A DNA stretch of 32,123 nt. Source: Candidatus Omnitrophota bacterium. GTDB taxonomy: Bacteria > Omnitrophota > Gorgyraeia > Gygaellales > Profunditerraquicolaceae. The stretch covers positions 1 through 32,123 of the forward strand of contig JADHWA010000006.1 in the NCBI GenBank assembly GCA_016783715.1, given 5' to 3'. The first letter of the stretch is position 1. Every line of letters starts with the position of its first letter. Below are positions 4,316 to 30,616 of the stretch, one piece after another. The position numbers and the translations under genes were made by a program. Under the pieces are notes generated by a model, which was given only the letters and a program-made list of their open reading frames with translations, had not been told where the DNA came from and did not search any database.

Positions 4316-4399
4316 TTTAATGAGCAGACCCAGCCCTTGCATGCAAGGGTGGGGTAGCGTCCGTTGTTATTCCTGTCTATTAAGCGTCTGCGCATTGAA
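4316..4399. repeat. A-type intercistronic hairpin module (long, branched variant) upstream of ilvC
   Basis: tttaatgagCAGAC-[cccaGCCCTTGCatGCAAGGGtgggg]...GTCTGcgcattgaa; sits directly at the ilvC Shine-Dalgarno. Confidence 0.7.
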
Positions 4400-4447
4400 C
4401 CCCGCACCCAAACAAGTAGCAGTAGATACTAAACTGGGTGAGGGGTT
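4398..4447. repeat. B-type hairpin module (AACCCCGCACCCA...TGGGTGAGGGGTT)
   Basis: 13-bp stem with one mismatch. Loop aacaagtagcagtagatact is shared with the copy at 30569-30616. Confidence 0.8.
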
Positions 4448-4510
4448 AAATTCGGACAGAGACTTATGTTCTCCGCCTTCGGCGGATCCATAAGTCTCGT
4501 CCTCATTTAA
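4446..4510. repeat. A-type hairpin module, inverted, overlapping the ilvN stop codon
   Basis: Minus strand: TTAAATGAGGAC-GAGACTTATG-gatccgccgaaggcggagaa-CATAAGTCTC-T-GTCCGAATTTAA. Confidence 0.82.
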
Positions 4511-8598: not shown

Positions 8599-9930
8599 TT
8601 AATCGTCACCTTCGCCGTCATGTGTAATTTCTTTAGCCTGTTTCTCCTTGCGCTTACGGCTGATCACACGCTTTAGGGCAACATACTTGTCTATGAGTTC
8701 CCTGTTATTTACGTTGTTAAGCTGCTTAAAGAGAAAATCGAATTTAGCTTCGATCTCAGCGGTGATTGCAAGCCGGACCTCCTCACTCAGTCCCATGATC
8801 TCTTTCTTGAACGGCCCTAAGGCTTTCTTCCTGGTTTTATAGATAAACTGATCATCGGTCTGGCCGTCTTTTCTCTCGCTTGCGGCATTGGTTTTTAACC
8901 ATTCATAAATCCGCTGTCTTAAGTCATCTGGAAAATGCTTACTCTCATAGATCATATTCTGGAATTGAGTAGCTAAATGCACTTCAGCTGCATCACACTC
9001 GGCAAACTTATGAAATGCTGTCTCAGGGAGCGTTGAGGCTCCGTGTTGCACTGCTCCGGCCATTCCGAATTCACTCCTGGCTAGTGCCGAAAGATTTTTT
9101 AAGGTATCAAAGTCCAATTTTACCTCGGCGATATTCCCGTCGGGTAAGACTACGCCCCCGTGTGAAGTGCCGGTCTGTATAGAGATCTTGCTGATACCTA
9201 CTAACCCCTTACGCAGTCTTTCCTTAAAACCGGCCATAAATGCCCTCAAATCCTCAGGTGTCGAATTCTGATGTCCAACCTCTCCGATCTCTCCACCCAC
9301 TGAAACCGTTACCCCTCTGGGCTCATTGCGGCGGATGAATTGAGTCAGTTTTGCACATACCTCATAGTTGAGATACTGCTGCTTCTTTACGCTGGGCTTA
9401 GAAAGATCAACCAGAGTAGAGGAATCGATGTCGATATTATAGAATCCGGCAGCCAGCGCATCGATGATTAGTGCCTGCAGTACATCCAACTCTTTTTGCG
9501 GATCATCCTTAAATTTCTTCAGATTGGCCTGAAAATGATCCCCCTGAATGAACACCGGCCCCTTATACTCCTCCTTGACCGCCGCAGCCAGGATTACCGC
9601 GGCAAATTCAACCGGCGGCTGAGCAGTATACCCCATCTCCGACTTTGCGATCTCAAAGATAAAAGATCCAGTGTTATTCTTCTTGGCTACTCGAAAAATA
9701 GCCCGCGCCAGGTCATATGTCATGGCCCGTAAATTGATCGCCGGGACGGTAAACCCGCTAAACTCCCCCCTGCCTCGCGCCATATAGAACTCGTGGATAC
9801 TCGAAGGATAAATCTCTTTTTTATAAGCGATGTCGGATATCTTCTTGGCGATCCTTCTCTTATCCGCCATATCATCGCTGTTAACTAACTCCATAACGAA
9901 TTTTTGCACATCGAGTGGCCTTCTACCCAT
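8599..9930 (-). CDS. Class II fructose-bisphosphate aldolase family protein (long form, 443 aa)
   Basis: FIQGDHFQ, AGFYNIDIDSSTLVD, GGEIGEVG, ISIQTGTSHGG and VQHGASTLPE motifs. Confidence 0.82.
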   Translation of the reverse strand: MGRRPLDVQKFVMELVNSDDMADKRRIAKKISDIAYKKEIYPSSIHEFYMARGRGEFSGFTVPAINLRAMTYDLARAIFRVAKKNNTGSFIFEIAKSEMGYTAQPPVEFAAVILAAAVKEEYKGPVFIQGDHFQANLKKFKDDPQKELDVLQALIIDALAAGFYNIDIDSSTLVDLSKPSVKKQQYLNYEVCAKLTQFIRRNEPRGVTVSVGGEIGEVGHQNSTPEDLRAFMAGFKERLRKGLVGISKISIQTGTSHGGVVLPDGNIAEVKLDFDTLKNLSALARSEFGMAGAVQHGASTLPETAFHKFAECDAAEVHLATQFQNMIYESKHFPDDLRQRIYEWLKTNAASERKDGQTDDQFIYKTRKKALGPFKKEIMGLSEEVRLAITAEIEAKFDFLFKQLNNVNNRELIDKYVALKRVISRKRKEKQAKEITHDGEGDD

Positions 9931-9942
9931 GCTACTACCTCC

Positions 9943-10001
9943 TTAAATGAGCACATCACTTAGCGAACGGCAGTGAAGCTAAGTGATAAGTGCGAATTTA
10001 T
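9943..10001. repeat. A-type hairpin module 1 upstream of fba
   Basis: TTAAATGA-GCAC-ATCACTTAGC-gaacggcagtgaa-GCTAAGTGAT-AA-GTGC-GAATTTAT; ends at the AAGGAGG Shine-Dalgarno. Confidence 0.85.
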
Positions 10002-10040
10002 CCCGTGGCCGTCGTTGTTCAACTATTACGGCCAGGGGAT
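10000..10040. repeat. B-type hairpin module 1 (ATCCCGTGGCCGT...ACGGCCAGGGGAT)
   Basis: 13-bp stem with one mismatch. Confidence 0.82.
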
Positions 10041-10041
10041 C

Positions 10042-10099
10042 TTAAATGAGCACATAGCTTAGCGAACGACAGTGAAGCTAAGTTATAAGTGCGAATTAA
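10042..10099. repeat. A-type hairpin module 2 upstream of fba
   Basis: TTAAATGA-GCAC-ATAGCTTAGC-gaacgacagtgaa-GCTAAGTTAT-AA-GTGC-GAATTAA, one G-T wobble. Confidence 0.85.
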
Positions 10100-10147
10100 C
10101 CCTCGACATTTACTTTAATTAATTTATTTTAGGTAGATGTCAAGGGT
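10099..10147. repeat. B-type hairpin module 2 (ACCCTCGACAT...ATGTCAAGGGT)
   Basis: 11-bp stem with one wobble around an A/T-rich loop. Confidence 0.8.
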
Positions 10148-10201
10148 AAGTTCGGATAGCAATTTATGATCACTACGTTCCATAAATTGCGTCCTCACTT
10201 A
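10147..10201. repeat. A-type hairpin module 3, inverted, overlapping the pfkA stop codon
   Basis: Minus strand: TAAGTGAGGAC-GCAATTTATG-gaacgtagtgat-CATAAATTGC-TA-TCCGAACTTA. Confidence 0.8.
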
Positions 10202-11164
10202 CGTTAAAATTTTAATTAAATCATACCAGTGTTCTATCTTGATCTTTTTCTTCTTTATAGCAGTAGCAAAAGATACGGTGCTGATCTTGTTACCGCATAG
10301 TCCTACCGCTTTGTCAATCTGGCCGCTTAATAAAGCATCTACTGCTGCCTGTCCCAGCCGAAGTGCTAGGTCACGGCTGAAAGCGGTAGGACGGCCTCCG
10401 CGCTGGACGTGTCCTAACACCACTGCCCTGCTGTCTAAACCTGTAATCTTCCTTATCTTCTTTGCGATATCAACTGCAGAGCCAGCGCCTTCAGCCACCA
10501 CGATTATCCAGCTAAGCTTACCCTGCAAGTTACCTTTTACGATATCCGAACAGATCGAATTAAGGTTATATTTTCTCTCCGGGATGATTGCAGCTTCGCA
10601 CCCGCCGCCCAGAGCGACTGTCAGAGCGATGTAACCGCTATCTCTACCCATTACCTCGACAACAAAGATCCTCTCCATAGAGGTGGCGGTATCACGAATA
10701 TTATCGATTGCGTTTAAGGCCGTATTCACCGCGGTATCCGAACCTATGGTAACATCTATACCGTTAACATCGTTATCGATTGAAGCAGGAATCCCGATAC
10801 AGGGAACTTTATATTTATTATATAACCTGTGCGCTGCGGTAAAACTGCCGTTGCCGCCAATGACCACCAAAGCATCAATTGAATTCGCCTTGACTACCTG
10901 ATATGCCATCTTCATGCCTTTTACAGTCCTAAACTCAAGGCACCTTGAGGTCTTTAATACCGTCCCGCCCTGGTTGATTATCCCCGAGACAGAGCGACGA
11001 TCCATTAACTTTATCTCATCATTGATCAGCCCCCACCACCCTTGCGAAACACCCGCTACCTGAAGCTTTTTATAGATGGCATAACGCGTAACCGAACGGA
11101 TTGCCGCGTTCATCCCCGGGGCATCTCCTCCGGTAGTCAGTACTGCAATCTTTTTTATCGCCAT
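10199..11164 (-). CDS. pfkA: 6-phosphofructokinase
   Basis: TTGGDAPGMNAAIR, PASIDNDVNGIDVTIG, VEVMGRDSGYIAL and GHVQRGGRPTAFSRDLA motifs. Confidence 0.93.
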   Translation of the reverse strand: MAIKKIAVLTTGGDAPGMNAAIRSVTRYAIYKKLQVAGVSQGWWGLINDEIKLMDRRSVSGIINQGGTVLKTSRCLEFRTVKGMKMAYQVVKANSIDALVVIGGNGSFTAAHRLYNKYKVPCIGIPASIDNDVNGIDVTIGSDTAVNTALNAIDNIRDTATSMERIFVVEVMGRDSGYIALTVALGGGCEAAIIPERKYNLNSICSDIVKGNLQGKLSWIIVVAEGAGSAVDIAKKIRKITGLDSRAVVLGHVQRGGRPTAFSRDLALRLGQAAVDALLSGQIDKAVGLCGNKISTVSFATAIKKKKIKIEHWYDLIKILT

Positions 11165-14136: not shown

Positions 14137-14195
14137 TTAAATGAGCCCACAATTTACGGAGTGAAAGCGAACGTAAATTGTATGGGCGAATTTAT
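14137..14195. repeat. A-type hairpin module upstream of ahcY
   Basis: TTAAATGA-GCCC-ACAATTTACG-gagtgaaagcgaa-CGTAAATTGT-AT-GGGC-GAATTTAT. Lower helix changed to GCCC/GGGC as a compensatory pair. Confidence 0.85.
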
Positions 14196-14234
14196 CCCGG
14201 GCAGCCCGTTGTCTTCTTGCAGGCTGCGGGGGAT
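14194..14234. repeat. B-type hairpin module downstream of metK (ATCCC..GGCTGC / GCAGCC..GGGAT)
   Basis: ATCCCgggcagcc...ggctgcgGGGGAT, with an internal mismatch. Confidence 0.75.
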
Positions 14235-14242
14235 CTTAATTG

Positions 14243-15426: not shown

Positions 15427-15492
15427 TTAAATGAGCACATCACTTAGCGATCCGCCGCAGGCGGAGAAGCTAAGTGATAAGTGCGAATTTAT
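15427..15492. repeat. A-type hairpin module 1 upstream of metK
   Basis: TTAAATGA-GCAC-ATCACTTAGC-gaTCCGCCgcaGGCGGAgaa-GCTAAGTGAT-AA-GTGC-GAATTTAT. Confidence 0.85.
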
Positions 15493-15531
15493 CCCGGGGC
15501 CGCCGTTATTCAACTATTCCGGCCGGGGGAT
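15491..15531. repeat. B-type hairpin module 1 upstream of metK
   Basis: ATCCCGGGGCCGCCG...CGGCCGGGGGAT. Confidence 0.75.
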
Positions 15532-15532
15532 C

Positions 15533-15593
15533 TTAAATGAGCACATCGCTTATGGAGTGCGCCAGCACGACATAAGTGATGAGTGCGAATTTA
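15533..15593. repeat. A-type hairpin module 2 upstream of metK
   Basis: TTAAATGA-GCAC-ATCGCTTATG-gaGTGCgccaGCACga-CATAAGTGAT-GA-GTGC-GAATTTAA. Confidence 0.85.
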
Positions 15594-15616
15594 ATCCGCC
15601 AAGCTTTGTGGCGGAT
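15594..15616. repeat. Short B-type hairpin (ATCCGCC-aagctttgt-GGCGGAT)
   Basis: 7-bp perfect stem next to the upstream gene's stop codon. Confidence 0.75.
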
Positions 15617-30483: not shown

Positions 30484-30569
30484 TTAAATGAACAGACACT
30501 TTATGGAACGAAAGTGACATAAAGTGTAGTGTCAGTTGTTTAACAATCTATCAACGTCTGTGAATTTAA
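30484..30569. repeat. A-type hairpin module (branched variant) upstream of the L27-like gene
   Basis: TTAAATGA-ACAG[ACACTTTATG...CATAAAGTGT]agtgtca[GTTG...CAAC]GTCTGT-GAATTTAA; ends at the AAGGAGG Shine-Dalgarno. Confidence 0.72.
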
Positions 30570-30616
30570 CCCCGCACCCAAACAAGTAGCAGTAGATACT
30601 GGACTGGGTGCGGGGT
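30569..30616. repeat. B-type hairpin module (ACCCCGCACCCA...TGGGTGCGGGGT)
   Basis: 12-bp perfect stem. Near-identical arms and loop to 4398-4447. Confidence 0.85.

Follow-up and report, generated by a model that had tools for sequence, protein, structure and literature searches.

Covarying hairpin repeats at gene boundaries of Omnitrophota, probable derivatives of a mobile element encoding a GIY-YIG nuclease

Introduction

The gap between pfkA and fba in the Candidatus Omnitrophota bacterium studied here is occupied by a row of hairpins, which raises the question of what these hairpins are, and whether they act as RNA in the operon transcript or as DNA. A reading of the sequence alone had described five hairpins in the order A-B-A-B-A', filling the whole gap and selected for their structure, either as RNA or as single-stranded/cruciform DNA. 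We followed this up in the window, by which we mean the whole analysed stretch of 32,123 nucleotides, in the rest of the genome (716,592 bp, 65% complete), of which the stretches around matches were used, and in relatives throughout the phylum.

Results

The array at 9943-10202 consists of the five hairpins A1-B1-A2-B2-A', all of them found where they had been placed by the sequence-only reading. Both fba (8599-9930) and pfkA (10199-11164) are on the minus strand. The gap between them is filled, as had been claimed, but the array also runs into the pfkA stop codon, which is inside its right end, and the left end abuts the GGAGG (ribosome-binding site) of fba. A1 (9943-10001, plus strand), seen in the sequence, in a covariance-model match and in folding, adjoins this GGAGG. 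Its helices are P1 at 9944-9948/9996-10000, P2 at 9951-9954/9990-9993 and P3 at 9955-9964/9978-9987, and its unpaired parts are a GA/GA at 9949-9950 and 9994-9995 and a 3' bulge at 9988-9989. B1 (10001-10040) is a hairpin of the ATCCCG..GGGGATCTTAA type, recognised in the sequence and by DNA and RNA folding, and B2 (10099-10148) is an ORF-less hairpin with the arms CCCTCGACAT/ATGTCAAGGG, recognised by sequence, arm comparison and folding; neither has a strand. A2 lies between them at 10042-10098 on the plus strand (covariance-model match 10042-10100), and A' at 10146-10202 on the minus strand, with a 5' end, TAAGTGAG, that contains the pfkA stop codon (10199-10201). The covariance model recovers each of the three A copies.

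From 5' to 3' the A module reads P1, GA, P2, P3, loop, P3, a 2-nt bulge, P2, GA and P1, starting with the consensus TNWARTGAG and ending with CGAAYTWNA. P1 has 5-6 bp (TNWART/AYTWNA type), P2 4 bp, and P3 10 bp with an invariant TTA/TAA. The module had been described with two helices, a 4-bp lower and a 10-bp upper one, and both are there, but the outer third helix P1 (TTAAAT/ATTTAA type), which also covaries and is separated from the lower helix by the GA/GA, had been overlooked. The lower-helix variants named in that description were recovered, GCAC/GTGC as well as GCCC/GGGC at 14137 and GGAC/GTCC at 4446. The loop of 12-13 nt is present too, but it is usually GA-ended and often has an internal GNNA hairpin. 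Among 184 modules of relatives, counts that are biased towards the covariance model by which the modules were found, the loop ends are of GA type (GA or AA) in 160, the loop folds further as GA-2bp-GNNA-2bp-GA in 72, the GA/GA is present in 168, and the bulge, said to be always on the same side, is 3' in every one. Stability is a known property of cGNNAg-type DNA loops. Tandem G-A pairs, which had been expected on one strand, are possible on the GA strand and not on the complementary one.

The covariance model was built on a seed of 12 modules from the bacterium's own genome, in which 98.2% of the cells are paired and 11 of the 19 base pairs have compensatory changes, that is on both sides. 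None of 500 shuffles reached the covariation of the seed, and slid controls dropped to about 19-37% paired. Single modules folded with z = -2.7 to -7.9 as DNA and z = -5.3 to -8.3 as RNA, and in most cases none of 200 shuffles folded as well as the module. The covariation is real and the module is under structural constraint, as had been proposed. Pairing over 250 modules (4724 pair cells) was about 97% Watson-Crick, with 1.2% G-U (G-T) and 0.7% A-C; the asymmetry of 56 GT to 32 AC is too small and too model-biased to show which strand folds. The recommended search against Rfam matched no family: the gap sequence gave nothing at the gathering threshold, the best permissive matches being microRNA models (E 0.14-0.59) far below it.

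Similar modules stand at other gene boundaries in the window. At ilvC, an A variant with an enlarged 3' bulge (TTTAATGAGCAGA..TCTGCGCATTGAA; 4316-4399, plus strand, read by eye) is beside the SD. Next come a B hairpin of the CCCCGCACCC..GGGTGNGGGG type (4400-4446, no strand) between ilvN and ilvC and an A' module (4446-4510, minus strand; covariance-model match and folding) which has TCCGCCGAAGGCGGA in its loop and contains the ilvN stop codon (4507-4509). At ahcY, an A module (14137-14195, plus strand, covariance-model match) is beside the SD and directly adjoins a B hairpin of TCCCG..CGGGGGATCTTAA type (14195-14236, no strand). Two plus-strand A modules lie upstream of metK, one beside its SD at 15427-15492 with a loop enlarged by GATCCGCC..GGCGGA (covariance-model match) and a second at 15533-15594 (covariance-model match and folding), and a B hairpin at 15492-15532 fills the space between them. 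A further A variant with an enlarged 3' bulge is found at 30484-30568 (plus strand; covariance-model match 30484-30543), with a B hairpin after it at about 30569-30616. The enlarged-bulge type of 4316-4399 also occurs on another contig (C40:14072-14147). In all three copies of this subtype the 3' bulge of about 30 nt is conserved, AGCGTCC..TTGT..AAGCG, and in some copies it could form a second small hairpin. The whole genome has 89 covariance-model matches.

The module was present in 52 of the 59 genomes of the family, with up to 82 copies each, and, at the level of the phylum, in 185 of 285 genomes (149 of 224 genera), a count for which the covariance model scored the best candidates only. 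The exact A pattern gave three matches over 85,462 GTDB species, and the model confirms only the one in Candidatus Omnitrophica UBA1562; the matches in Patescibacteria and Leptospiraceae were rejected, as the model does not confirm them. In the pfkA-fba gaps that were read in relatives of the same order the synteny is kept and there is no array. Several of those relatives hold tens of modules elsewhere. The C-terminal end of pfkA and the start of fba are both intact. A conserved cis-regulator at pfkA-fba is rejected by the empty gaps among those read. Turnover is visible even within a genus: at three sites G299 has modules that are lacking from the aligned region of G237. The modules form a dispersed repeat family with turnover and precise sites. 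What the sequence-only reading had missed is a phylum-wide gene-boundary repeat of which some full copies have a GIY-YIG gene.

Single junctions could be compared between genomes. At one orthologous stop codon (..YLGEKFRM*) there is an A-type element in G048 (L197), G071 (L107) and G299 (L151/L229), whereas G237 (L242) has a variant hairpin that stands on the same GA/GA, and the bacterium's own genome (L123) has nothing there. The loci L103 and L105 represent the same junction of a tRNA-Gly and a downstream gene, with A-B in two genera and completely different helix sequences. A comparison of L242 with L229 showed that G237 has other junction repeats missing in G299, for example the CTACACCCTATACCC.. 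and CGCAGATTTATCTGCG.. types directly after stop codons.

Neighbouring modules less than 400 bp apart were convergent in 37 cases, tandem in 7 and never divergent (five genomes), and the 5' end of the GA strand faces outward, towards a gene. A co-directional ORF ends near the module start in 73 of 242 modules, and in 56 of these 73 the stop codon is inside the module at +1, +2 or +5. Another 105 of the 242 point to the beginning of a gene, whose start codon is at -2..+1 in 26 modules and, with the SD beside the module, at +8..+14 in 60, together 86 of 105. Modules also occur directly after tRNA 3' ends (L103, L105, L106). The stop-side and start-side ends are distinct subtypes that differ at the second base of P2: G prevails on the stop side (51 of 73 modules) and C on the start side (79 of 105; C/G only, Fisher p = 5e-14). 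Genes ending inside a module mostly have a C-terminal length within 0-1 residue of their module-free orthologues. The P1 5' strand contains the stop codon and the 3' strand its complement, and L287 has the rare form TCTAG/CTAGA around a TAG stop. This joint variation of P1 and stop codon may reflect target pairing or fold-back templating.

It is conceivable that the hairpins are cis-acting RNA in the operon mRNAs, protecting ends at stops and serving as spacers before the SD, with selection at the RNA level. The co-directional operon gaps, the fixed positions, the strong RNA folding and the covariation agree with this, but the array is missing from the relatives' pfkA-fba gap, modules are gained or lost within a genus, and the strand capable of tandem G-A pairs, which is sense at gene ends, is antisense at gene starts, following the orientation of A and A'. 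The very low level of G-U wobble also speaks against RNA, although the model search favours Watson-Crick pairs and the figure has no RNA control. We find an RNA function improbable. Of the two forms originally offered, DNA fits better than RNA, because A and A' have opposite orientations, G-U is scant and the relatives' gaps that were read have no array.

Six complete composites, from three genera and two classes, have a GIY-YIG nuclease ORF within B. One is an insert in G299 at a site empty in G237 and is built as A' - CCCTTGACATTT - GIY-YIG ORF - AAATGTCAAGGG - A. The others have the same plan, L232, L234 and L163 (G299), L281 (G046) and L287 (G048). All six ORFs are in operon sense, with both B arms outside the ORF. 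Those of L151/L229, L155/L232, L163 and L234 match PF01541 with 37-57 bits against a cut-off of 22.6, and those of L281 and L287 had been found as PF01541 matches in the first place; by sequence family they are UPF0213/COG2827 GIY-YIG proteins. Among 58 composites, ORF-less B had a length of 14-225 nt, and the five ORF-bearing ones that were measured had 266-316 nt. In the ORF tree L229 and L287, which come from different classes and share the CCCTTGACATTT arms, group at 100/98, and L232, L281 and L163 at 100/86. All 11 occurrences of the CCCTTGACATTT arms adjoin an A module, as do the majority of occurrences for most other arm types. The B2 arms of the window are of the CCCTTGACATTT type with one change (CCCTCGACATTT), the same type that brackets the ORFs of L229 and L287, and the ORF is absent. 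An internal deletion of the ORF would be the simplest reading of B2. A tblastn search of ORF-less B loops gave no GIY-YIG remnants above the reversed-protein control.

GIY-YIG genes are also found apart from A. At L307 and L298 they lie in B-like arms without A at gene junctions, with the duplications TAAT and TGAA, and L282 and L292 have CCCGTTAGA arms and the duplications TAAA and ATGAAT. TGAA, TAAA and ATGAAT were read by eye; a first inverted-repeat scan around the GIY-YIG loci was too noisy, and a focused one gave few clear cases. The insertions of L298 and L292 split a probable overlapping stop/start, and neither gene is broken. This suggests that GIY-YIG genes with inverted repeats can insert at junctions. 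Since such elements exist without A, A is not required, and the link between A and the nuclease is an association and not proof. The outer flanks of A-B-A' gave no consistent target duplication. Among about 70 GIY-YIG loci inspected in the family only two are A-bracketed. The bacterium's own genome has a single non-UvrC GIY-YIG gene (L269, C38:5130-5348), which is flanked by GTCATTGCGAG..GAAGCAATCTCAT repeats belonging to another family of palindromic repeats. GIY-YIG ORFs inside tRNA genes were seen at L279, L280, L283, L284, L285, L289, L290 and L293 in family genomes, and in several of them the ORF is preceded by a partial copy of the 5' half of the tRNA and followed by a restored tRNA, a homing-type pattern.

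Another explanation is that the A/B composites are mobile by other means and that the GIY-YIG genes are homing-like invaders which settled in the B loops. In its favour, GIY-YIG counts and A copy number are uncorrelated across the 59 genomes (rho 0.14, p 0.30). In G016 there are 40 A modules but a single GIY-YIG match, which is a 424-aa frame interpreted as UvrC, and the elements without A or within tRNA genes point the same way. Against invasion stand the six out of six ORFs within B, in operon sense and with the arms outside, and the ORF lineage, which tracks the arm type across classes; nor was any alternative A-bracketed enzyme met, an incidental observation and not a systematic survey. 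We regard independent invaders as unlikely, yet the most credible of the alternatives.

The one-sided bulge, the inverted hairpin pairs and the intergenic location resemble BIMEs, which could imply that the repeats are REP/BIME sequences mobilised by a Y1 tyrosine transposase (RAYT), and an unpaired GA in the stem can occur in REP families (PMC3733652). However, Y1_Tnp is absent from the bacterium's own genome and from G046, G048, G057 and G023 despite their 72, 52, 53 and 32 copies, the module consensus has no GTAG tag, and over the 59 genomes Y1 and A copy number are negatively associated (rho -0.33, p 0.012). This negative association makes Y1 transposases unlikely as the general mover, and we give a RAYT origin very little credence.

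Discussion

The pfkA-fba array probably consists of nested, MITE-like copies, most of them lacking the ORF, of a mobile DNA element that occurs phylum-wide. On balance, we think that the A/B repeats in general derive, as MITE-like copies, from a mobile element that encodes a GIY-YIG nuclease and ends in structured hairpins. Like MITEs they are dispersed, high in copy number and variable in presence and absence, and they have terminal inverted repeats in the convergent A/A' pairs (37:0), with ends that are structured and not identical.

A complete element, read in operon sense, would consist of A' from the upstream stop codon, the left B arm, the GIY-YIG ORF, the right B arm and the inverse A, ending at the downstream SD or ATG. 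Most copies would have lost the ORF and kept A'-B-A, A-B or A alone. We infer a nuclease as the mover, with recognition of single-stranded or cruciform DNA and pairing with the target. The nuclease, element-encoded or in trans, would recognise the folded A end (P1, tandem G-A, P2, 3' bulge and P3) as hairpin or cruciform DNA and cut stop/start junctions, and repair would copy the element in. The target may pair with the P1 3' strand, and this would account for the joint variation of P1 and the stop codon within it. An insertion at a stop/start junction would break neither gene. The mover may have been lost, may act in trans from a few copies, or may be something else.

More specifically, and only tentatively, we propose that the small GIY-YIG nuclease is a mobility enzyme with bulged hairpin DNA ends as its recognition sites, and that it inserts the element exactly at the stop/start junctions of operons, perhaps by target pairing with one strand of the end hairpin, with tens of nuclease-less copies per genome maintained in trans. 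The elements could then form a new class in Omnitrophota. A phylum-wide family inserted exactly between stop codons and ribosome-binding sites would account for a large part of the intergenic DNA in these compact genomes, and would offer a concrete system in which a tiny nuclease spreads DNA without a classical transposase. It also calls for caution, as covarying intergenic hairpins of this kind should not be read as regulatory RNAs.

Known GIY-YIG enzymes act as nucleases in repair or as homing endonucleases. We found no description of the element family in a literature of which our coverage is incomplete, no publication on palindromic repeats in Omnitrophota or on a connection between GIY-YIG and prokaryotic MITEs, and no GIY-YIG enzyme as the mover of high-copy inverted-repeat elements with structured ends. 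The attC site of integrons is a folded single-strand site with extrahelical bases and a variable terminal structure near stop codons. The Omnitrophota modules differ from it, being inverted pairs between syntenic housekeeping genes and not one-way cassette sites, and the GTT of the integron core GTTRRRY is not seen in the module consensus. Freestanding GIY-YIG homing endonuclease genes occur for example in T4-like phages. They are likewise small ORFs in intergenic gaps with unbroken neighbouring genes, but the Omnitrophota ORF is inside inverted-repeat arms and hairpin ends, and there are tens of ORF-less copies per genome. Structures exist for the same sequence family as the element ORF, UPF0213/COG2827 (PDB 1ywl, 1zg2), labelled only as hypothetical proteins.

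REP/BIME sequences with RAYT (PMC3733652) share hairpins with a one-sided bulge or mismatch, inverted pairs and an intergenic location, whereas the Omnitrophota module has no GTAG and a negative Y1 association, is larger, has an outer covarying helix and forms strictly convergent pairs. MITE/BOX-type repeats such as BOX and RUP of S. pneumoniae (PMC3049150, PMC10969869) are likewise short, high-copy, structured and intergenic, with modules in variable number, nested insertions and some copies with ORFs; neither GIY-YIG nor an endonuclease is mentioned in the MITE review. In contrast to these, the Omnitrophota repeats have ends that are covarying bulged hairpins, sites that coincide with stop codons and SD, and full copies with a GIY-YIG gene.
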